DNA of 22,286 bases, taken from the IMG/VR virus record IMGVR_UViG_3300030110_005272, positions 1 to 22,286 of that record; one strand, given 5' to 3'. Made by a program: the position numbers and the translations under genes. Below, piece after piece: positions 3,965 through 21,088 of the stretch. Numbering within the stretch: the first letter of the stretch is position 1; each line of letters opens with the position of its first letter. The stretch is from a virus. The notes under the pieces were generated by a model that was not told where the DNA came from, made no database searches, and was given only the letters and a program-made list of their open reading frames with translations.

Positions 3965-4635
3965 CCCTAACGGAACTAAAAACTTTAATTCAAAATTTTT
4001 GTGAAAGCACAGAAACAACTTTTGTTGCTTCTTTAAATGATTTTATAAAAAGTTCAGAAGATAGAATATTTGAATTAGTTCAATCAGATTATTTTAAAAA
4101 AGTAATAGCGGGTAACGTCTCAACAGGAAATAGATTTTTAACTTGCCCAACAGATTTTATTTTAAGTTTTAGTTTAGCTGTTGTTGATTCTAATAATGAT
4201 TATCACTACTTGCTAAAAAAACATTCTAGTTTTATGCAAGAGTACAATAAAGATATCGCTGACACTAATTTACGTGGTTTGCCAAAGTATTATGCTGACC
4301 AAGATAAAGAACTTTCTTCCGGGTCTAACTCAGGCTCCACATTACTTATTGCTCCAGTCCCTGATGCAAACTATTCTGTAGAACTAACTTATTTACACAA
4401 ACCAAATAGTTTAGTTACAGATACAACAGGAACGTGGTTATCAACTAACGCTAAAAATGCTTTACTTTATGGGTCTTTAGTAGAGGCGTACACTTTTTTA
4501 AAAGGCGAACAAGATTTATTACAGCTTTATGAAAATAGATTTGTGCAAGAAATAGACAGACTTAAAAACAGAGCAGAAGCTAGAGGCAGACGCGACGAAT
4601 ATCGTTATGACGCATTGAGGACTCCTACCACTTAA
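3961..4635 (+). CDS. Head-tail adaptor protein (SU10 adaptor type)
   Basis: 224 residues. The N-terminal part has the pattern 'LNDFIKSSEDRIFELVQSDYF', followed by a beta part with 'RFLTCPTDFILSFSLAV', a Gly/Ser-rich loop near residue 120 and 'LLIAPVPDANYSVELTYLHKP'. The C-terminus is a helix with 'YGSLVEAYTFLKGEQDLLQLYENRF' character and a very basic end. This order is that of the adaptor family that forms the ring between portal and tail nozzle in phiSU10-like and many marine podoviruses. It overlaps the previous gene by ATGA and the next by TAATG. Confidence 0.7.
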   Translation: MTLTELKTLIQNFCESTETTFVASLNDFIKSSEDRIFELVQSDYFKKVIAGNVSTGNRFLTCPTDFILSFSLAVVDSNNDYHYLLKKHSSFMQEYNKDIADTNLRGLPKYYADQDKELSSGSNSGSTLLIAPVPDANYSVELTYLHKPNSLVTDTTGTWLSTNAKNALLYGSLVEAYTFLKGEQDLLQLYENRFVQEIDRLKNRAEARGRRDEYRYDALRTPTT

Positions 4636-5372
4636 TGAGAAAGATAAAAGAACTAGAAGGCAAAACTGTAGGTATTGTCGGGTTAGGATCAAGTTGGCTA
4701 GAATATAATTTAGCTAAATCACACGGGCAACATTTTGATGAAGTTTGGGCAATAAACAATGTTGCTTCAGTTATTTATCACGATCGCGTTTTTATGATGG
4801 ATCCACCTAATAGATTTTTAGATAGTGATGATGCTGGTGGTCAAACTGAAGGCATGAAAAGCCTTTTACTTAAACACGATAAACCAATCTACACTTGTAT
4901 AGATGACGAACGTTGTAATGAAAACATACAAGAATATCCAATTTTTGAAATACTTAAAGATTTAAACTGTCATTATTTAAATAACACTGTTGCATACGCA
5001 ATTGCGTTTGCTTTATGGAACAAAGTTGGCAGGCTTAAATTATTTGGCATAGATTTTTCATATAAAGGCAACTTACATTTTGCTGAATCAGGTAGAGCTT
5101 GTGTTGAGTTTTGGTTATGTAAATGTTCAGAAGCAGGAATGGAAATAGAAGTAGCAGCCAGCAGTGCTTTGTTAGACACAGCTGTACCTTTAAATGAAAA
5201 ACTATATGGCTATCACAGACTAGAAGATCCTTTAATACCTGTACTTTTAGAAGATAATACTTTATCAGTTAAAACAGAAAGTTCTTTACAAGAAAAGATT
5301 GTTCCTAAAGAAGGAGTTTTAATTGGTCGTCACGATGAACATTTAAAACCAGTGGAGCCAAAAAAATGGTAG
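4635..5372 (+). CDS. Rossmann-fold protein of MptE/DUF115 (Maf-like) type
   Basis: 245 residues. The N-terminus has a nucleotide-binding-like beta-loop-helix (VGIVGLGSSW, residues 12-21), then 'EVWAINN' (36-42) and 'DRVFMMDPPNRF' (50-61). A second core is 'KLFGIDFSYKGN' (135-146) followed by 'RACVEFWLCKC' (154-164). This layout resembles DUF115/MptE-like enzymes, the superfamily that includes pterin diphosphokinases and the Maf proteins thought to add nonulosonic sugars to flagellin. The substrate here is unknown. It is embedded in the connector operon (1-nt overlap upstream, 7-nt overlap downstream), which is odd for an enzyme and suggests modification of a virion or host surface component. 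The last ~50 residues (EDNTLSVKTESS onward) look like a flexible tail. Confidence 0.55.
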   Translation: MRKIKELEGKTVGIVGLGSSWLEYNLAKSHGQHFDEVWAINNVASVIYHDRVFMMDPPNRFLDSDDAGGQTEGMKSLLLKHDKPIYTCIDDERCNENIQEYPIFEILKDLNCHYLNNTVAYAIAFALWNKVGRLKLFGIDFSYKGNLHFAESGRACVEFWLCKCSEAGMEIEVAASSALLDTAVPLNEKLYGYHRLEDPLIPVLLEDNTLSVKTESSLQEKIVPKEGVLIGRHDEHLKPVEPKKW

Positions 5373-6108: not shown

Positions 6109-9100
6109 GTGGCTTTTGTCCTTAACGACAGAGTAAAAGAAACCACTACCACTACTGGGACAGGTACCGTTAATCTTGGTGGGGCGGCATCAGGTTTTGA
6201 TACTTTTGTTGCTGGGATCGGTAATAGCAATGTTACTTACTACTGTATAGCTGGACAAACTACTGCTGAATTTGAAGTAGGTATTGGTACTGTTACAGAT
6301 GCTTCACCTGATACCCTTTCACGTACTACAATTTTATCTAGCTCTAACAGTGATAATGCTGTTGATTTTAGCGCTGGCACTAAAGATGTCTTTTGTACTC
6401 TCCCTGCAAGTAAAGCAGTGGTTGAAGATACAAGTAGCAACGTCACACTGCCTGGAACTATAACTGCTAATGCAGGTGTTGTTGTAGACGAACTTACTAT
6501 TGATGCAGACACCATTACAGCTACAGATGACTTCATAATAGATGCAGTAGGAGATATAACTCTTGACGCTGCTGATAATCAAATATTTTTTAAAGATGCA
6601 GGAACTACAGTAGGCACTGTAACTATGACTGGCAGTGATTTAAAAATCATATCAAACGTAAATGACAAAGATATGATTTTTGCAGGAACAGACAATAATT
6701 CAGAAGTAGTCGCTCTTACCCTTGATATGTCTAATGCAGGTAAAGCCACATTCAACTCAAGTGTATTTATAGGTAATCATTTATATCTTGGTGACAGCAA
6801 CAAAGCTATTTTTGGTGCAGGCGAAGATTTAGACATACAAAGTGATGGAACAAATGGTCAAATAAATGCTGTTAATGGAAATCTAACATTAGATGTAGCA
6901 GGAGATATTATCCTTGATGCTGATGGTGGTGATATTAAACTCCAAGATGGAGGAACTGAATTTTCTCGTATAGCAAAAGGCTCTAGTGATGATGTTTTTA
7001 TTTCTGCCATAGTTCAAGATAAAGATATACAGTTTAGAGGCAATGATGGTGGCTCTGTTATAACTGCCCTAACGCTTGATATGTCTCAAGCAGGAGAAGC
7101 AGACTTTAATAGTGCGGTTAAAGTAGCTGGAGGCATAGTTGCACATCAAACTGATAGAGGAGTTTTAGAGTATGCTTCAAACTTTTTTAAATTAAGGTCT
7201 TATGGTGCTTCCGCAGGAAGTGGTGCTTTTGTTATTAATGTTGGTGGTGGCGGTGGCAGTGCTGACTCAGAAGCTTTAAGAATAGATAGTTCAGGAAATG
7301 TTGGAATTGGTACAACTTCACCATCAAGTGCATTACAGGTAAATGGTGCTGTATCAATTACAGGCGATGGCAGTAATGCAACAACTTTAACTGAAAGTGG
7401 GTCAGGTGATTTTACTGTAGATACAGTAGGAAACATTGTTCTTAATGCTGATGGTGGTGGCATACAGTTTTATGATGGTAGTGACTATATTGGTTCTTTT
7501 GGAAACTCAAGTACTAACTTTTCAATCATGTCTAGAACAAATGATAAAGATATTGTTTTCAAAGGTATTGATGGTGGTTCAACCATTACTGCCCTAACGC
7601 TTGATATGTCAGCAGGTGGTAAAGCTGTATTTGCAAACAATATAGATTTTGGAGACGGTCATTTTATTGGAAATGATTCAGATGATAATTTATACATTGC
7701 AAGTAGTGCAGGAGAAAATATTAGATTAGATTCACCAGCTGAAATAGTTTTAGATGCCGATGGTGGAAACATTACCTTAACCGATGGTGGCACAGCAATT
7801 GGTCAATTCCAGTTAAATGATACCAACCATTTAAAACTAGGTTCAAAAGTATCTGATGCTGATATTAGATTTTTTGGTACCGATGGTGGCTCTCTTATAA
7901 CTGCTCTTATCCTTGATATGTCAGACGCTGGTACAGCTATATTTAACCACGATGTAAAACTTCCTGACAATGGTATTCTTGCAATTGGTGATGGTGGCGA
8001 TTTACAGCTAACTCATAATAATAGCAATGGCACTATAACTAACAGCACAGGCGATCTAACATTAGATGTAGCAGGAGACATTATTCTTGATGCCGATGGT
8101 GGAGATATAAGATTTAAAGACGCAGGAACTGAAATAGGTGCTTTAGAAAATTCTAGCTCTGATTTACAAATAAAAGCTAGTGTTCAAGACAAAGACATAA
8201 TATTTAGAGGTAATGATGGTGGTTCTGGAATTAATGCCCTAATCCTTGATATGTCTGCAAGTGGTGCAGCAACATTTAATGACCAAGTAACAATCGGTGG
8301 TAATTTAGTACACGCAGGAAATATGACTGTAGATGTAGCAGGAGATTTAACACTTGATGCAGATGGCGGAGATGTAATTATAAGTGATGGTGGTAGTGAA
8401 AAAGCTAGAATAGATGGTTCTGGTCGATTATTACTAAATTCAACATCTACATCTTTTAATGACTTTCTTTATGTAAATGGTGACGCATACACTACTGGTG
8501 GTTGGCGAGTAGGAAGTTCTGGAACTTATGTTGGTAAGATGTACAACAATAGTGGCAAACTTCAATTAGAAGCAGATGGTAGTAGAGATATACGTTTTGG
8601 TAATGCTACAAATTCCGACATTTTATACGTTGATACATCAAGCCAACACGTAGGAATTAACACTTCATCGCCAGTATCAATTTTTCACACAAGAACTACA
8701 GATGCTACTTCTAATAATAACGCTGGTGGTGGTTTTTCTTTAACAAGTTCATCAACAGCAGGTAGCAGAAGAGCTTTAATGTTTCTGGATGCAGACAATG
8801 GAAACTTTAGTACAAGTTCTGATGGTGCATACGCTTTCATTGAAAAGAAAGGTGATGGTGGTAACTTAAATATAGTCAACCAAGACACAGCTAACATTGA
8901 TTTAATGCAAGGTAGCAATGTCAGGTTTAGTATAGATTCATCAGGAAATATTGACATACATGGTAGAGAATTAATTCTTGATGTTGATGGCGATTCTTCT
9001 ATACAAGCAAGTACTGATGACGTTATACAATTTAAAACTGCTACTAACGAAAGAATGCGAATTGATGCTTCTGGTGATGTTGGAATTGGAACTACATCGC

Positions 9101-10371
9101 CAAACGCTAAATTAGAAGTTACTGGTAGTAGTGATGGTGATTTAACTACTGCAATATTTGCTAATACTGTACAAGGTGGTACAAACGATACGGTTGCAGT
9201 TGAATTACAATTAGCTGGTACAAGTGGACAAGTTGCTGCTAGTACATTAAGAGCTGGTAAAGGTGAAGATTGGACAAGTGGTACAAGTAGAAGTGGTTTC
9301 TTAGCAATAGAAGCAGTGTTAGATGGTACTAATCGTCAAATGGCATACTTTGGTTCTGATGGTGATGGTAGTTCAAAAGTAAGTTTTTCAACTAACAATT
9401 CAGAAGCAATGCGAATTGATTCTTCTGGCAATGTTGCAATTGGTGCTACATCTGCTGGTGCTAAGTTAGATGTGAATGAAAATTCAAGTACAGCTTATTC
9501 TACTACTGGTGAACCAAGAGAAGATATTATTATTCATAACACAAATGGTGCTGATGGTAGTGGAGTAAATAATTATGCTAGTTTAGGGTTTCAAGTAGCT
9601 AGTGGTGCAACTTCACAAGGTTTTATAAATTATGTAAGAACAGCAGATAACTTAGGTGCTTTTACTTTTTCTCAAAGAACTGGTAGTTCTAGTTATGCAG
9701 AAGCAATGCGAATTAATTCTGATGGGATAACTACTTTTGGTACAACTGGTGCTAGTCCAGTTTTTAACAATCAAAGTGGTGTATCTATCGGTGATAACAA
9801 TGGTGCAACTGTTGTTGGTGTAGGTCAGTTTTCTGCTTCTGGTGCAGTTGCTGGAAGATTTAATAGGACAAATGAAGATGGTGTAATTATTGCAATACAT
9901 CAAGCTGGAACACAAGAAGGTACTATTTCTGTAAGTGGCTCAACAGTTTCTTATAATGGTTTTTCTGGCAATCACGAAACATCGGGCATAGCATCTGATA
10001 CACCTATTGGTACTGTATGTAGCACCATAGATGAATTAGATACTTATTTATCAGGCAGTAAAGAAGGACAAACTAGAGCAGACCACGCAAAAATTAAAGT
10101 AAGTGATGCAGTAGGTGATACTAGAGTTTATGGTGTTTTAACTAACTTTGATAGAGAAATTGATAATAAACCAATTGTAGCTTCGGTGGGTATAGGTTCT
10201 ATATTAGTGACTGGCAGTTGTGTTGGTGGAGATTTATTAGAATCTAATGGTGATGGCACAGCTAAAGTACAAGACGATGACATTATTAGAAGTAAAACAA
10301 TAGGTAAAGTTACAATAGGAAACTCAACTTCAAGTGTAAAACTTGTTTCATGTGTTTTATACTGTGGTTAA
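6109..10371 (+). CDS. Large repetitive tail fibre protein
   Basis: 1,420 residues with a GTG start at 6109 behind AAAGGGG. Repeats of 'AL.LDMS..G.A.FN' begin near residues 205, 323, 498, 602 and 713, separated by beta units of 'LDVAGDIILDADGGDI' type. The second half has fibre motifs of GIGTTSP kind near 396, 847, 989 and 1107. The last ~140 residues form a different module that starts near FSGNHE (1285-1290) and ends in VSCVLYCG. An F.G.H motif at this place is seen in C-terminal modules of some phage fibres and neck appendages (peptidase G2-like). The DYRLKEN motif of S74-type chaperones is absent. The protein should form a trimeric fibre that binds the host. The repeats are also visible at DNA level and make the gene prone to recombination. 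Confidence 0.85.
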   Translation: MAFVLNDRVKETTTTTGTGTVNLGGAASGFDTFVAGIGNSNVTYYCIAGQTTAEFEVGIGTVTDASPDTLSRTTILSSSNSDNAVDFSAGTKDVFCTLPASKAVVEDTSSNVTLPGTITANAGVVVDELTIDADTITATDDFIIDAVGDITLDAADNQIFFKDAGTTVGTVTMTGSDLKIISNVNDKDMIFAGTDNNSEVVALTLDMSNAGKATFNSSVFIGNHLYLGDSNKAIFGAGEDLDIQSDGTNGQINAVNGNLTLDVAGDIILDADGGDIKLQDGGTEFSRIAKGSSDDVFISAIVQDKDIQFRGNDGGSVITALTLDMSQAGEADFNSAVKVAGGIVAHQTDRGVLEYASNFFKLRSYGASAGSGAFVINVGGGGGSADSEALRIDSSGNVGIGTTSPSSALQVNGAVSITGDGSNATTLTESGSGDFTVDTVGNIVLNADGGGIQFYDGSDYIGSFGNSSTNFSIMSRTNDKDIVFKGIDGGSTITALTLDMSAGGKAVFANNIDFGDGHFIGNDSDDNLYIASSAGENIRLDSPAEIVLDADGGNITLTDGGTAIGQFQLNDTNHLKLGSKVSDADIRFFGTDGGSLITALILDMSDAGTAIFNHDVKLPDNGILAIGDGGDLQLTHNNSNGTITNSTGDLTLDVAGDIILDADGGDIRFKDAGTEIGALENSSSDLQIKASVQDKDIIFRGNDGGSGINALILDMSASGAATFNDQVTIGGNLVHAGNMTVDVAGDLTLDADGGDVIISDGGSEKARIDGSGRLLLNSTSTSFNDFLYVNGDAYTTGGWRVGSSGTYVGKMYNNSGKLQLEADGSRDIRFGNATNSDILYVDTSSQHVGINTSSPVSIFHTRTTDATSNNNAGGGFSLTSSSTAGSRRALMFLDADNGNFSTSSDGAYAFIEKKGDGGNLNIVNQDTANIDLMQGSNVRFSIDSSGNIDIHGRELILDVDGDSSIQASTDDVIQFKTATNERMRIDASGDVGIGTTSPNAKLEVTGSSDGDLTTAIFANTVQGGTNDTVAVELQLAGTSGQVAASTLRAGKGEDWTSGTSRSGFLAIEAVLDGTNRQMAYFGSDGDGSSKVSFSTNNSEAMRIDSSGNVAIGATSAGAKLDVNENSSTAYSTTGEPREDIIIHNTNGADGSGVNNYASLGFQVASGATSQGFINYVRTADNLGAFTFSQRTGSSSYAEAMRINSDGITTFGTTGASPVFNNQSGVSIGDNNGATVVGVGQFSASGAVAGRFNRTNEDGVIIAIHQAGTQEGTISVSGSTVSYNGFSGNHETSGIASDTPIGTVCSTIDELDTYLSGSKEGQTRADHAKIKVSDAVGDTRVYGVLTNFDREIDNKPIVASVGIGSILVTGSCVGGDLLESNGDGTAKVQDDDIIRSKTIGKVTIGNSTSSVKLVSCVLYCG
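6697..8268 (+). repeat. Five-fold degenerate repeat inside the tail fibre gene
   Basis: Blocks encoding 'AL.LDMS..G.A.FN' have their LDMS start at 6721, 7075, 7600, 7912 and 8245, that is 354, 525, 312 and 333 nt apart, all in frame. A second block encoding 'LTLDVAGDIILDADGGD' occurs near 6881 and again 1,173 nt later near 8054, with only a few base changes. Nucleotide as well as protein similarity is kept between copies, which suggests duplication or gene conversion. Confidence 0.75.
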
Positions 10372-12841: not shown

Positions 12842-13756
12842 ATGAAAAAATTAGTTTGGTTAAGTTTAGCTTTTCTATTGTCTATACCTATGCACGCAGC
12901 TCAAACAGGCGATTGCACCATGGGTTCTCAATACTGTGAAGGCAACAGTTTAAACACTGTTAACACTACTACTACGACAAATACAAATACGAACAACAAC
13001 ACTAATAACAACACCAACACTAATACTAATACCAACAGCAATACGAATAATAATACCAATGTTAGTACCACCACAAATAGTAATACCAACGCTAATACTA
13101 ATATTAACACTAGCACTAGTAACGTAACTTCAACTGCTACTCAAACTGTGAACAATACAAATAGCAGTACCAACGTTAATACCAATAGTTCAACGAATAA
13201 TAACAACAACACTAGTACTAGTACTTCTAATGTCAGCACTAGCAATCAAAATAATAATAACAACACTAGCACTGCAACTAATACTAATAACAATAATTCA
13301 AACTCTAATCAAAAAATAGAACAAGATATAACTTCTCCACCGGCTTCGGCTATCGCGCCTAGCATTATGTCTTACTCGCAAGACCTTTGTACTACTGGAG
13401 TTTCAGGCGCGTTTCAAGGTCAACTCTTTGGTTTGTCTGGTGGTAAAGCTGTCCGAGATCAAAATTGTGAGCGGTTAAAATTATCTAAATATTTATATGA
13501 CACTGGTATGAAGGTAGCTTCAGTAGCAATACTTTGCCAAGACTCTAGGGTATTTAAAGCTATGGAAATGGCTGGTACGCCTTGTCCATACATGGGTAAA
13601 ATAGGTGAAGATGCTTCGGTCGCTTGGGTAGATAACAAAATAGATCGACCTGATTACTTAGAGCGCAAAAATAAATTTATGCAAAGTTGCACTAGAAGTA
13701 AGAATCATAAAGGCGTAAGAAAGAGCCGACGCACCTGTGAAAAAGAGTATAGTTAG
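12842..13756 (+). CDS. Exported Asn/Thr-rich protein with C-terminal Cys domain
   Basis: 304 residues. A Sec signal peptide covers about residues 1-20 (MKKLVWLSLAFLLSIP, cleavage near HAA|Q). Residues 38-157 are almost only Asn, Thr and Ser, much of it as TNTN and NNNT runs. The last ~130 residues are a folded domain with 'GLSGGKAVRDQNCERLKLSKYL', 'VASVAILCQDSRVF' and 'AGTPCPYMG', ending in a basic tail. There are eight cysteines (25, 32, 183, 209, 232, 248, 283, 299), which would fit disulphides outside the cytoplasm. I recall similar C-terminal domains after low-complexity regions in marine phages, all uncharacterised. The Asn-rich stretch is prion-like in composition, and TxT patterns also occur in beta-solenoid proteins. 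Its job is unknown: surface fibre, superinfection barrier, or virion part. No ribosome binding site precedes the ATG. Confidence 0.75.
   Translation: MKKLVWLSLAFLLSIPMHAAQTGDCTMGSQYCEGNSLNTVNTTTTTNTNTNNNTNNNTNTNTNTNSNTNNNTNVSTTTNSNTNANTNINTSTSNVTSTATQTVNNTNSSTNVNTNSSTNNNNNTSTSTSNVSTSNQNNNNNTSTATNTNNNNSNSNQKIEQDITSPPASAIAPSIMSYSQDLCTTGVSGAFQGQLFGLSGGKAVRDQNCERLKLSKYLYDTGMKVASVAILCQDSRVFKAMEMAGTPCPYMGKIGEDASVAWVDNKIDRPDYLERKNKFMQSCTRSKNHKGVRKSRRTCEKEYS
12953..13312 (+). repeat. ACY/AAY codon-repeat tract (Asn/Thr low-complexity region)
   Basis: About 360 nt made mostly of ACN and AAY codons, leaving the + strand nearly free of G. Synonymous codons change from unit to unit (AAT/AAC, ACT/ACC/ACA/ACG), so the protein pattern is older than any recent slippage. 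The tract is in frame throughout. Confidence 0.85.
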
Positions 13757-15764
13757 TCTGGCTTTATTTAGTAGTTTTATTTTTAGCAACTACATACCAG
13801 AATCAAACCAACCTTTATATCAACTACAAACCAACGCTAATAATTTTCAAGGCGAATTAGCCTACGAAGTAGCAGATGATGGTGTTTCACCAGCTATAGA
13901 CTTATCTTTTAATTTTACTTTTTACGATCAAACTTTTAGTCAAGCGCGTATGGCAACTAATGGTTGTTTGCACTTTAAAACTAGTGGCGCTTATTGTAAT
14001 GATTACACACCGGATCCTCTTACTGGTCAGCACACTTATACTATGTACCCTTTTTGGACAGACTTAATTAGAGACACTAATGCTCGTATGAAATCTTGGG
14101 GAGACTCAAGCAAAATGATTTTCGGCTGGTATGAGTTACGTGAATACAATCGTAGTGGTAGCGATAATAGTTTTGAAATAATATTGTGGCCCAACAATAC
14201 TTTTGAATATAGATACGGCGACTTAGATATACAAACGCATGATGTGCTTATTGGTGAAACTGGTAACAACACAGAAAAATATACGTATTTATTTTATGAT
14301 GAATGTAACACTGGTAGTACTAACTCAGGCACTTGCGTAAATGTTGATTGGAATAACTCTATAGCAAACTCAGGTCTAGAAAGTGGTGGTTCACTTTATG
14401 GAGTTGGCTCTGGTAATGGCAGCAGTATTGATTGTTCTAATCCACTTAATGATATGAGCTGTGCTGGTTACTGGGAAGCTTTTGACGATCAACAATGTGA
14501 CATAGATCCGCAATATGCTCCGTTTTGTGCTGGCTATAGATTTGAACAAGATGTTGGTTATTTTGCGCAAGAAGAATTTGATTATGGTTTTATTGATGAG
14601 CAAGACATGATGGCTAGTGGTCAATTTGATCATAGTGAAGAACATCAGCAAGAACAATATGAAGATCCTTTTGTTTTTACTGCAATAGCAGTTAACGAAG
14701 GTTTTACTGTTTTTGAACCAGAACCAATGTTTTCACCAGAACCTTTTCGTCAAGAAACTGTGTTTGAGCTAGACCCACTACCAGAACTTTATCCAGAACT
14801 ACCAGAAGAACTAATTCAATTTATCCAGTTTGAAGAGACTGTGCGATTAATTTCTTTAATAGAAGAACTGCCTTTTGATGAACCGCAGCAAGAAGAACGT
14901 GAAGTTGAAGAAGAAGTACTTACTTTTGAAACGCTTGAAGAGTTAGAAATATTTGCTGAAGACTTAGATCAAATTATTGTTGAAGAACGTCGTGAAGAAA
15001 TACGACAAGAAGAACGAGTTGAAGCTGAAGAAGAACGTTTGGTTGAAGCAGAAGAACGTTTAGAAAATATTTTTGAAGAAGAAACTGCTCCAGTAGAAGT
15101 AGAAGTAATTGCAGCAGTGGCTAAAATAGATGAAAAATCTGGTATTACTAACACTCAATTAAATGTGGTTGCCGCAAGTATCAACGCTGCAACTAGCAGT
15201 GTTAGCGGCACTACTGCTGGGAATGATACGCACGCTAGTGGTAATAGTTATAGTTCTGGCGGCTTAAGTAGTTCAACTAGTATACAAACTAATTTAACTT
15301 TAAATTTTAATTTAAACACTACTAGTTCTGATACAGCTGTAAACACTAACGTTGGTGCGACTGAAACTACTGCCGAAACTACTGTAGTTACAAATCAAGT
15401 AGTTAGCAGCGGTGATAATCAAGACACTACTGGTTTAACAACTGAAACAAAATCAGAAGCAGATACTATAGCGGATGAGATTGTTGCACAAAATTTAGAG
15501 GATCAAGCTAAAGATCAAATTGAAGAAAGAAAAAACAACAGCAATGAGTATGGGGACGAGCAAAAAATTATTGCTTACATTGGCTTTGTACCAGGCTTTG
15601 ATGCGTACACTAACGCTAATCTGCCGGTAAAACTTGATTGGTATGCAACAAAATTAATTTATGCGAACAACACAATATCAGATAACACACTGGCTTTTAA
15701 AAAATTATCTGGTATAAATTACCAAAAGCTTGATAAAATAATTCAATTACAACCGGGTTTATAG
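13737..15764 (+). CDS. Exported protein with nidogen-like domain and Glu-rich coiled coil
   Basis: 675 residues. GTG start at 13737, inside the last 20 nt of the upstream gene; this start gives a proper signal peptide (MKKSIVSLALFSSFIFS). Residues ~50-190 resemble nidogen-type beta domains: 'FNFTFYDQTF', 'MATNGCLHF', 'YPFWTDLIR', 'SFEIILWPNNTFEYRYGD'. Residues 233-266 hold a Cys cluster with CAGY twice (242, 264). Residues ~326-450 are extremely acidic, Pro/Glu-rich and then helical with long Glu/Arg runs. Ser/Thr-rich sequence (~480-580) and a C-terminal domain with 'AYIGFVPGFDAY' (613-624) follow. It should be exported and extended, built like an adhesin or stalk. Translation is probably coupled to the Asn/Thr-rich partner. 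No membrane anchor or enzyme motif is seen. Confidence 0.75.
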   Translation: MKKSIVSLALFSSFIFSNYIPESNQPLYQLQTNANNFQGELAYEVADDGVSPAIDLSFNFTFYDQTFSQARMATNGCLHFKTSGAYCNDYTPDPLTGQHTYTMYPFWTDLIRDTNARMKSWGDSSKMIFGWYELREYNRSGSDNSFEIILWPNNTFEYRYGDLDIQTHDVLIGETGNNTEKYTYLFYDECNTGSTNSGTCVNVDWNNSIANSGLESGGSLYGVGSGNGSSIDCSNPLNDMSCAGYWEAFDDQQCDIDPQYAPFCAGYRFEQDVGYFAQEEFDYGFIDEQDMMASGQFDHSEEHQQEQYEDPFVFTAIAVNEGFTVFEPEPMFSPEPFRQETVFELDPLPELYPELPEELIQFIQFEETVRLISLIEELPFDEPQQEEREVEEEVLTFETLEELEIFAEDLDQIIVEERREEIRQEERVEAEEERLVEAEERLENIFEEETAPVEVEVIAAVAKIDEKSGITNTQLNVVAASINAATSSVSGTTAGNDTHASGNSYSSGGLSSSTSIQTNLTLNFNLNTTSSDTAVNTNVGATETTAETTVVTNQVVSSGDNQDTTGLTTETKSEADTIADEIVAQNLEDQAKDQIEERKNNSNEYGDEQKIIAYIGFVPGFDAYTNANLPVKLDWYATKLIYANNTISDNTLAFKKLSGINYQKLDKIIQLQPGL

Positions 15765-15765
15765 T

Positions 15766-16062
15766 ATGGAATGGCTTAAAGGAAAATTAGGACAAATAAT
15801 CGCAGTAGCTGCTTTAGTTAGTACTATTGCTGGTTTTGGCTATACTGGTGCTGGGTATGTAACTAGGTTAGAAGCAGTTGAAAAACGTTCAGGTGTTTCT
15901 TATAAAAAAGAACTGCAAGACTTAACTGAAACGGATGTGGTAATAGAAAAAGAAATTTTAGTACTACAAACAGAAATAAAAGCTTTGCAAGATAAAGTTA
16001 CGGCTATACAGAAAAAACAAGACGATAGTGGTAATCCTTTGATATCAATAAACAAGAGGTAG
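15766..16062 (+). CDS. Small membrane protein with coiled coil
   Basis: 98 residues starting 1 nt after the previous stop. One transmembrane helix (about residues 9-31, with GFGYTGAGY at its end) is followed by a coiled coil (about 33-86) with regular leucine and isoleucine spacing, and a short polar end. An N-terminal anchor and a helical outer part recall inner-membrane spanins, but no partner lipoprotein is found. It could also anchor the exported proteins encoded just upstream. Confidence 0.6.
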   Translation: MEWLKGKLGQIIAVAALVSTIAGFGYTGAGYVTRLEAVEKRSGVSYKKELQDLTETDVVIEKEILVLQTEIKALQDKVTAIQKKQDDSGNPLISINKR

Positions 16063-16351: not shown

Positions 16352-16561
16352 ATGACTAGAGCAACTGTTTCAGAATTAGATAAAAGATTATCTGCACATG
16401 AAGCAGCTTGCGAAGTTAGGTGGCGCGAAAACTGGCGTCGATTAGAAACAATTGAAACCGAAGTAAAATCAATAAATAAAAGCATTAGAGCGGGCCTAGT
16501 ATTTTTTGGTACTTTAATGCTAAGTGTTACAGGCTTTATGGTAAAAACATCCCTCTTCTAA
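16352..16561 (+). CDS. Coiled coil plus C-terminal membrane helix protein
   Basis: 69 residues, 1 nt after the previous stop. The first 45 residues are a charged amphipathic helix (SELDKRLSAHEA, ENWRRLETIETEVKSINKSI), followed by one membrane helix at about 47-65 (GLVFFGTLMLSVTGFMV). The plan of cytoplasmic coiled coil followed by a C-terminal membrane helix is that of haemolysin XhlA-like phage proteins, which help lysis in some phages. It is the last gene before a 35-nt gap and a new start signal. Confidence 0.6.
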   Translation: MTRATVSELDKRLSAHEAACEVRWRENWRRLETIETEVKSINKSIRAGLVFFGTLMLSVTGFMVKTSLF

Positions 16562-19069: not shown

Positions 19070-19549
19070 ATGAACATTTTTGATTGGACCAATAATACAA
19101 AATTAAGTAGAAACTTTTCGTTACGTGAGTTAACCAAAAGCTCTACCGCAGTTAGAAAAAACATAGATAACTCTGTTAAAGATAGAGACGTCTATAACTA
19201 TTTAGTAAAAGTCTGTAAACATATTCTGCAACCAATTAGGGAACACTACGACATACCATTTAGTCCTAACAGTGGTTATCGTTGTCCAGAACTAAACACT
19301 GCAATTGGTGGCTCAACTACAAGTCAGCATTGTTCAGGTCAAGCAGTAGACATAGAACTACCGACTGTAAACAATTCAGAGTTGTTTGATTTTATAAAAG
19401 AAAATCTTGAGTTTGATCAAGTTATTTTAGAATACTATGATGGTGTAGATCCGCGTAGTGGTTGGGTGCATGTTTCTTACATATCACCTAAAATGAATAG
19501 AAACAGAGCCATGACTTTCGATGGTAAAAATTATAGAATAATAGAATGA
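19070..19549 (+). CDS. Endolysin, M15 family zinc peptidase
   Basis: 159 residues. The motif SQHCSGQAVDIE places zinc ligands H87 and D94, and the third ligand is H134 in GWVHVSY; E121 (in DQVILEYY) is the likely catalytic acid/base. 'NFSLRELTKS' near the start and 'SGYRCPELNTAIGG' (68-81) are also usual in M15_3 peptidases, which cut peptide bridges of peptidoglycan. There is no signal peptide or membrane helix, so export needs a holin; a 3-TM holin gene stands 1.6 kb downstream. It starts 2 nt after the previous stop and overlaps the next gene by 4 nt. Confidence 0.88.
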   Translation: MNIFDWTNNTKLSRNFSLRELTKSSTAVRKNIDNSVKDRDVYNYLVKVCKHILQPIREHYDIPFSPNSGYRCPELNTAIGGSTTSQHCSGQAVDIELPTVNNSELFDFIKENLEFDQVILEYYDGVDPRSGWVHVSYISPKMNRNRAMTFDGKNYRIIE

Positions 19550-20559: not shown

Positions 20560-20705
20560 GAGTTAAAGCACCAAAAGGCTATCACTGGATGAAACAAAAA
20601 AATGGTAGTTATAAATTAATGAAACACTCAGGTAAGTTTGTAGCACACAAAGGCGCAACACAATCAGCTAATTTTGCTGTGCAAAAAGTACACAAAAAAT
20701 CATGA
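20556..20705 (+). CDS. Small basic protein with GYHWM motif (49 aa)
   Basis: ATG at 20556 (ATGA overlap with the stop upstream), stop 20703-20705 (ATGA overlap with the holin gene). It reads 'KGYHWMKQKNGSYKLMKHSG' and then 'HKGATQSANFAVQKVHKK', which looks like a compact beta-hairpin plus helix. Proteins with this GYHWM pattern are found in marine phages and are uncharacterised. Coupling to the holin suggests shared late expression. Confidence 0.58.
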   Translation: MRVKAPKGYHWMKQKNGSYKLMKHSGKFVAHKGATQSANFAVQKVHKKS

Positions 20706-21088
20706 TTGAATCAATAGTAGGCGTAGCCGGTAACGTGCTAGATAAATTTGTGGTCGACAAAGATTTAAAAGCTAAATTAGACCATGAACTTAAGACCGCT
20801 TTTCACTCAGCTAACTTAGCGCAGATAGAGTTAAACAAACAAGAAGCAGCACACAAGAGTATGTTTGTTGCGGGCTGGAGGCCCTTCGTTGGGTGGACGT
20901 GTGGAGTGGCTTTAGCTTATCACTTTATACTTTCTCCGTTACTATCTTTTGTATTAGTGGTAACGGGAATAGATACTCCTATGCCCGCATTTGAGTTTTC
21001 ACAACTTTCTACTATTCTTATGGGCATGCTCGGGCTTGGTGGCTTGAGGTCATATGAAAAAATGAAGGGCGTGCAGAGAGAGAAATAG
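20702..21088 (+). CDS. Holin (GTA_holin_3TM-like)
   Basis: 128 residues. A helical N-terminal half (AKLDHELKTAFHSANLAQIEL) leads into 'FVAGWRPFVGWTCGVALAYHF' (55-75), a long hydrophobic region to about residue 90, a Pro-containing loop, and 'LSTILMGMLGLGGLRSYEKMKG' (102-123). The WRPFVGW and GLGGLRSYEK signatures are those of the 3-TM holin superfamily of phages and gene transfer agents. It should open the inner membrane for the endolysin at 19070. The stop overlaps the GTG of the next gene by 1 nt. Confidence 0.82.
   Translation: MIESIVGVAGNVLDKFVVDKDLKAKLDHELKTAFHSANLAQIELNKQEAAHKSMFVAGWRPFVGWTCGVALAYHFILSPLLSFVLVVTGIDTPMPAFEFSQLSTILMGMLGLGGLRSYEKMKGVQREK

Follow-up and report, generated by a model that had tools for sequence, protein, structure and literature searches.

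The gene at positions 12842-13756 of the window (the whole 22,286-nucleotide stretch analyzed here, drawn from a 42.3-kb virus record) is the first member of a conserved three-gene cassette, A-B-C, whose products we tentatively interpret as a late, exported envelope complex that acts at lysis in a spanin-like role, a reading to which we assign a probability of roughly 0.42. Our computational analysis defines the family of A, its cassette, the signal-peptide-like and transmembrane (TM) segments of the encoded proteins, a two-residue register under selection in A, and the homology of its core to a phage lipoprotein. The envelope-lysis reading would account for the signal peptides and the Cys core, for a coiled coil held in the membrane, for the related lipoprotein, and for where the genes lie and their occurrence in both podo- and myophages. 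Because A appears to be made with two envelope proteins beside lysis genes, a part in opening the cell is more likely for it than a free extracellular fibre. Gene A and its parts are as follows.

12842..13756, + strand: gene A, predicted exported N/T-tract protein of 304 aa, PHROG 20531 (sequence, PHROG match, homologs)
12842..12901, + strand: signal-peptide-like N terminus, residues 1-20, with predicted cleavage near MHA/AQ or HAA/QT and no lipobox (sequence)
12914..12940, + strand: N-terminal Cys pair CTMGSQYCE, residues 25-33; C25 and C32 invariant in 65 homologs
12941..13336, + strand: Asn/Thr/Ser tract, residues 34-165 (132 residues), in strict two-residue register
13337..13636, + strand: conserved core, residues 166-265, with four Cys (183, 209, 232, 248) common to all clades
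13637..13753, + strand: C-terminal basic helical tail with two further Cys (283, 299) (homologs, AlphaFold2)

The first 20 residues begin Lys-rich, pass through a hydrophobic core (10 residues with a Kyte-Doolittle value of 2.6) and finish in a sequence resembling A-x-A, and a signal-peptide-like start of this kind is found in nearly all relatives, which supports the earlier note's proposal that A is exported. A consensus lipobox is absent from A in 74 homologs. The N-terminal Cys pair (CxxxxxxCE) is typical of the long-tract clade, and we delimited the tract as the stretch from this motif to PPASAI. The nearly pure Asn/Thr/Ser tract that the note had placed at residues 38-157 is present, with 52 Asn, 39 Thr and 20 Ser among 132 residues (84%), but runs slightly longer, from 34 to 165; the Cys-containing domain described after it stands, its four cysteines being conserved across all clades. 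Codons within the tract are mixed (AAT 30/AAC 22; ACT 23/ACC 8/ACA 4/ACG 4) and only 4 of 65 neighboring hexanucleotides are identical, so the tract is not a recent perfect DNA repeat.

The window's A matches PHROG 20531 with an E value of 2.1e-13 over residues 78-259, and its relatives in the other clades belong to the same family over the Cys core (HTVC023P, E 3e-18). We found relatives in at least 599 IMG/VR stretches and in 11 annotated phage records, six from Pelagibacter (the myophage Mosig among them), two from Roseobacter and three from uncultured phages. They fall into four clades that differ mainly in the tract: 112-290 residues in clade I, which includes the window, ~45-50 in clade II (HTVC023P, HTVC202P, Mosig type), ~13 in clade III (HTVC115P type) and ~45 in clade IV (roseophage type). 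The signal peptide and the four core cysteines are kept in all four. Of the two losses among relatives that the earlier note named as counting against its reading, loss of the signal peptide is thus not seen, whereas the tract is indeed short in three of the four clades. Since the long tract is confined to one clade of four, we regard it as an elaboration of clade I and place the shared function of A in the four-Cys core. Metagenome-assembled contigs gave nine relatives, and most of these contigs carry other phage genes of this kind; we therefore read them as phage and claim no cellular homolog of A. In the phage CRP-810, gene A (gp53) is annotated as an "OmpA family protein" and gene C (gp51) as "lysozyme", and both look misannotated. 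The capsid protein of the window's virus is 80% identical to that of phage DSL-LC04 (host given as Gammaproteobacteria) and 76% identical to that of HTVC023P, identities that make a SAR11-like host likely.

The tract of clade I alternates strictly between two phases. Its length is even in all 101 unique tract/core combinations, among which there are 44 different lengths, and parsimony on the core tree requires at least 61 length changes, all of them even. We counted phase composition on the 97 correctly delimited tracts among 98 unique ones: the constant phase is 58% Asn and 21% Ser with 0 charged residues among 8,972, whereas the variable phase is 58% Thr with 907 charged residues among 8,972, counts that are not independent because clade I tracts share descent. 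All clade I relatives whose sequence spans the region have the tract, which, together with this charge distribution, argues against chance. In 26 disjoint close pairs, nonsynonymous and synonymous changes number 87:216 in the variable phase versus 18:190 in the constant phase (Fisher p 1.5e-8), and over all 64 pairs the ratio is 0.42 versus 0.07, making the uncharged face about six times more constrained than the charged one. These values, along with the mixed codons, bear out the earlier suggestion that the amino-acid pattern is selected. The same two faces recur, with three exceptions, in a separate lineage (L414) that has 16-residue units such as STNLNTNRNFNESTST. This long-tract relative, with units of the NxNxNxNxSxSx type, lacks the N-terminal Cys motif, and its contig is binned as Actinomycetota yet bears a phage capsid gene. 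The tract in another relative, L019, is 156 residues long, again an even number.

An explanation of the tract alone, compatible with any role of the complex, is that it forms a flexible spacer, an unstructured or glycosylated stalk whose even lengths arise by slippage of six-base units. The one clean tract indel, between L117 and L118, is indeed an in-phase six-base duplication, and because such slippage would also yield even lengths, we rejected these by themselves as proof of structure. A spacer would also fit the long alternating serine dipeptide repeats, O-glycosylated, of Fap1-type adhesins (PMC3601411), and AlphaFold2 leaves the tract unstructured. Slippage is insufficient, however, as it explains neither the charge-free phase (0/8,972 versus 907) nor why the nonsynonymous/synonymous ratio of that phase is six-fold lower; Asn predominates on the conserved face, which does not resemble O-glycosylated Ser, and Asn runs on it peak at 4, far from shuffled strings. 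We therefore consider a spacer quite unlikely. Strong two-residue selection on a low-complexity tract suggests that it is probably structured rather than disordered, and the simplest reading is that it would adopt a two-faced beta structure. The alternation fits the beta-solenoid envisaged in the earlier note, although AlphaFold2 gives the tract no fold (pLDDT 24-38); in the same model, residues 213-303 are helical with a pLDDT of about 90. Foldseek found no match in the PDB for the A or B models, sequence searches of the PDB with the A family profile and with the tract gave nothing useful, and Pfam has no match to the window's A or B at E 0.1.

Downstream of A, the window encodes the two other members of the cassette.

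13737..15764, + strand: gene B, predicted exported protein of 675 aa; its start overlaps the end of A by 20 nt
13854..14306, + strand: head of B, NIDO-like beta domain, about residues 40-190 (NIDO profile match, AlphaFold2)
15480..15761, + strand: C-terminal domain of B, WYxPxxIYxxxxIxDNxxAF...LQPxL, conserved within clade I
15766..16062, + strand: gene C, 98 aa, with one N-terminal TM segment, a coiled coil and a near-invariant NPL near the C terminus

The order A, B, C is kept across the four clades: among 407 loci or records, many of which are truncated, 371 have B and 298 have C, the latter sometimes lying beyond the stored flank of the locus. In the window, B and C are 1 nt apart; in HTVC023P, the products of A, B and C are gp45, gp46 and gp48. 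B begins with a signal-peptide-like sequence in 47 of 47 homologs from clade I and in 5 of 6 from clade II; a lipobox pattern occurs in only 5 of the 47, and the window's B is without one. The protein also contains an acidic linker, and the window's B has a net charge of -86. The NIDO domain is matched in 8 of 47 homologs (best E 4.4e-7), and AlphaFold2 models this head and helices with a pLDDT for the head mostly of 80-90 and a pTM of 0.38. In clade II, the head is replaced by a carbohydrate-binding-like one with a sub-threshold match to CBM_4_9, and B of S28-C10 and HTVC033P is annotated "putative carbohydrate binding domain". Because the heads differ between clades, a tblastn search with the window's B found no match in phages, and HHalign of clade I against clade II B aligned only the signal peptide; we thus group the B proteins by where they are encoded and how they are built rather than by proven homology.

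These heads could instead mean that B, with A, is a receptor-binding component of the virion made beside the tail fibre, as has been proposed for marine phage genes that carry the annotation of B in S28-C10 and HTVC033P. The window's cassette comes just after tail fibre and collar genes, and such carbohydrate-binding genes are highly variable in metaviromic islands (PMC3909814). Cytoplasmic virion assembly is hard to square, however, with a C anchored in the membrane and with A and B that begin in signal-peptide-like sequences. HMM searches found no tail family for A and only a weak baseplate match to B (E 0.018), and the cassette also occurs away from tail fibres, upstream of terL. We regard a virion role as improbable. 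Two other genes of the window deserve mention: positions 6109-10371 encode a putative tail fibre of 1420 aa in which units of the LTLDVAGDIILDADGGDI type are repeated, and a 245-aa ORF at 4635-5372, starting MRKIKELEGKTVGIVGLGSSW, looks unlike a structural protein although it lies within the structural gene block.

C has one hydrophobic segment near residues 8-25 and a coiled coil of varying length in 30 homologs, with NPL close to the C terminus in 29 of the 30 aligned and, among the clade III proteins inspected, in the majority. It weakly matches PHROG profiles of Rz-like spanins and XhlA-type haemolysins, and its charge bias toward an N-in orientation is weak. In L037, an 88-aa ORF with a lipobox-like start, MKNLYLLFVGMFLASCA, directly follows B in the place that C takes in relatives. 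The cassette usually lies near endolysin, holin or terminase genes, and three such neighbors follow it in the window.

16352..16561, + strand: 69-aa coiled-coil protein with a C-terminal TM segment, XhlA-like layout (sequence)
19070..19549, + strand: M15 peptidase, candidate endolysin (Pfam PF08291, E 5e-20)
20702..21088, + strand: predicted three-TM holin (PF11351, E 6e-16; PHROG 3427 holin, E 1e-29)

Candidate endolysin or holin genes lie near the cassette in several isolates too. In the T7-like phage S28-C10, the gene order is tail fibre, a holin-like gene, A, B, C, terL, and the cassette occupies the place of Rz/Rz1 in T7. In HTVC022P, which has no match to A, the same slot near terL contains only a gene for a TM and coiled-coil protein. 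The Rz family PF03245 scored above its cut-off in 0 of 11 cassette records, with one sub-threshold match in HTVC033P. Farther along the window, the ORF at 21088-21777 matches an OGFOD2-like protein (2OG-Fe oxygenase-type) at E 2.7e-7, just at Pfam's cut-off.

The strongest hint of an envelope role for A comes from the roseophages. Of 83 clade IV loci or records, 77 encode, overlapping the frame of A, a small protein with a lipobox-like start and the four-Cys pattern of A; its start was assigned automatically in only part of the 77 cases. The two proteins share the pattern CQRN...G...AA..LMC......C, HHalign relates them with a probability of 94 (E 1.4e-7), and five of five lipoproteins tested match PHROG 20531 at the core of A (E 6e-4 to 7e-3). 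The core fold of A therefore occurs in what is predicted to be an outer-membrane-type lipoprotein. These small lipoproteins (L087, L085, L329-L408) are in part unannotated.

Exported proteins with adhesive-type heads (NIDO, CBM-like) and an N/S-faced beta register could also build a surface coat, in which A and B would reach the outside of the infected cell and serve to exclude superinfecting phages or to aggregate cells, the B head binding surface glycans and the A tract forming a fibrous layer in the spirit of pelagiphage curli operons. Complete curli (T8SS) operons do occur in other pelagiphages, with proposed roles in aggregation and in defence against superinfection (PMC9599517). Against a coat, no CsgG was found in the cassette genomes and no other outer-membrane channel was noticed in them, C is a predicted inner-membrane coiled coil, the context is usually one of tail, lysis or packaging genes, and the tract is only short in three clades. 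A coat is accordingly unlikely in our estimation, and the extracellular filament or coat put forward in the earlier note finds no support in a compact, conserved envelope cassette that usually lies near lysis or packaging genes.

We infer the late expression, complex formation, disulfides, rod and lysis role of the envelope-lysis reading from the features above. A would be a late, Sec-exported envelope protein in a three-protein complex with B and C. C would sit in the inner membrane and extend its coiled coil into the periplasm, the variable head of exported B could bind an envelope or surface ligand, and A would join both through its disulfide-type four-Cys core. The tract may form a two-faced, beta-strand-like rod or solenoid, N/S pointing inward and T and charged residues outward, which would govern spacing or adhesion and change length in two-residue steps. 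By linking the envelope layers, the complex would disrupt the outer membrane after endolysin action, as spanins do. With no lipobox in A or in the window's B, and no lipobox ORF found near the window's cassette, a canonical o-spanin is missing at the window. HTVC027P, of the HTVC023P group, has an M15 peptidase and no match to A, and it lyses its host (PMC12753301); A is therefore not needed for lysis in that group.

A more far-reaching version, which we hold to be doubtful, is that the cassette is a new envelope machine of marine alphaproteobacterial phages. A would then be a polar-core beta-solenoid or fibre with an interior Asn/Ser ladder, adjustable in length in two-residue steps; its disulfide-rich core would connect it both to the coiled coil in the inner membrane and to a ligand-binding protein that varies, and the whole would open the envelope without a canonical outer-membrane lipoprotein. 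The cassette phages include isolates of SAR11, one of the most abundant ocean bacterial groups, and A occurs in hundreds of viral contigs. The literature searched says little about how these phages get through the SAR11 envelope, and the cassette would offer a direct handle on that question if it carries out the outer-membrane step of lysis. The tract is, in addition, a clear example from nature of a low-complexity sequence, dark to AlphaFold, on which two-residue selection is strong.

Among known families and systems, PHROG 20531 is the same sequence family as A and has no function assigned; its cassette, register and lipoprotein relative have no description in the literature searched. The pelagiphage curli/type VIII secretion operons (PMC9599517) likewise come from phages of the same host group and encode an exported, beta-rich, Asn-containing protein with a Sec signal, but the cassette has another gene set and A has an N/S versus T/charged two-residue register in place of the curlin repeat unit. 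We rejected membership in this system, as CsgG was found in 0 of 11 cassette records, with controls positive, and A has no Pfam match. Serine-rich repeat adhesins such as Fap1 (PMC3601411) resemble A in their long exported dipeptide-repeat tract, with one phase near-constant and the other variable and charged; they differ in that the constant residue of A is Asn/Ser rather than the alternating Ser, the phage is Gram-negative and no LPxTG was seen. The "carbohydrate binding" genes of metaviromic islands, the most frequent identified genes there, share their "putative carbohydrate binding domain" annotation with B of S28-C10, but they were interpreted there as host recognition (PMC3909814), in passages that discuss neither signal peptides nor partners like A and C. 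Two-component spanins such as lambda Rz/Rz1 (PMC6139136) contain, as the cassette does, a protein with one N-terminal TM segment and a periplasmic coiled coil, the layout of an i-spanin that C is predicted to have. An outer-membrane lipoprotein with a lipobox, the mark of an o-spanin, is absent at the window, with a lipobox-like protein in the roseophage clade. Further likenesses are exported Cys-containing partners, overlapping genes, the T7 Rz/Rz1 slot in S28-C10 and the small lipoprotein that roseophages add over A. The cassette differs from such spanins in having three or four genes, cleavable-type signal peptides without a lipobox on A and B, a large B head with an acidic linker and the long beta-patterned tract of A. 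Its membership in the spanins, the pelagiphage curli and the serine-rich repeat adhesins is thus at most partial in each case.
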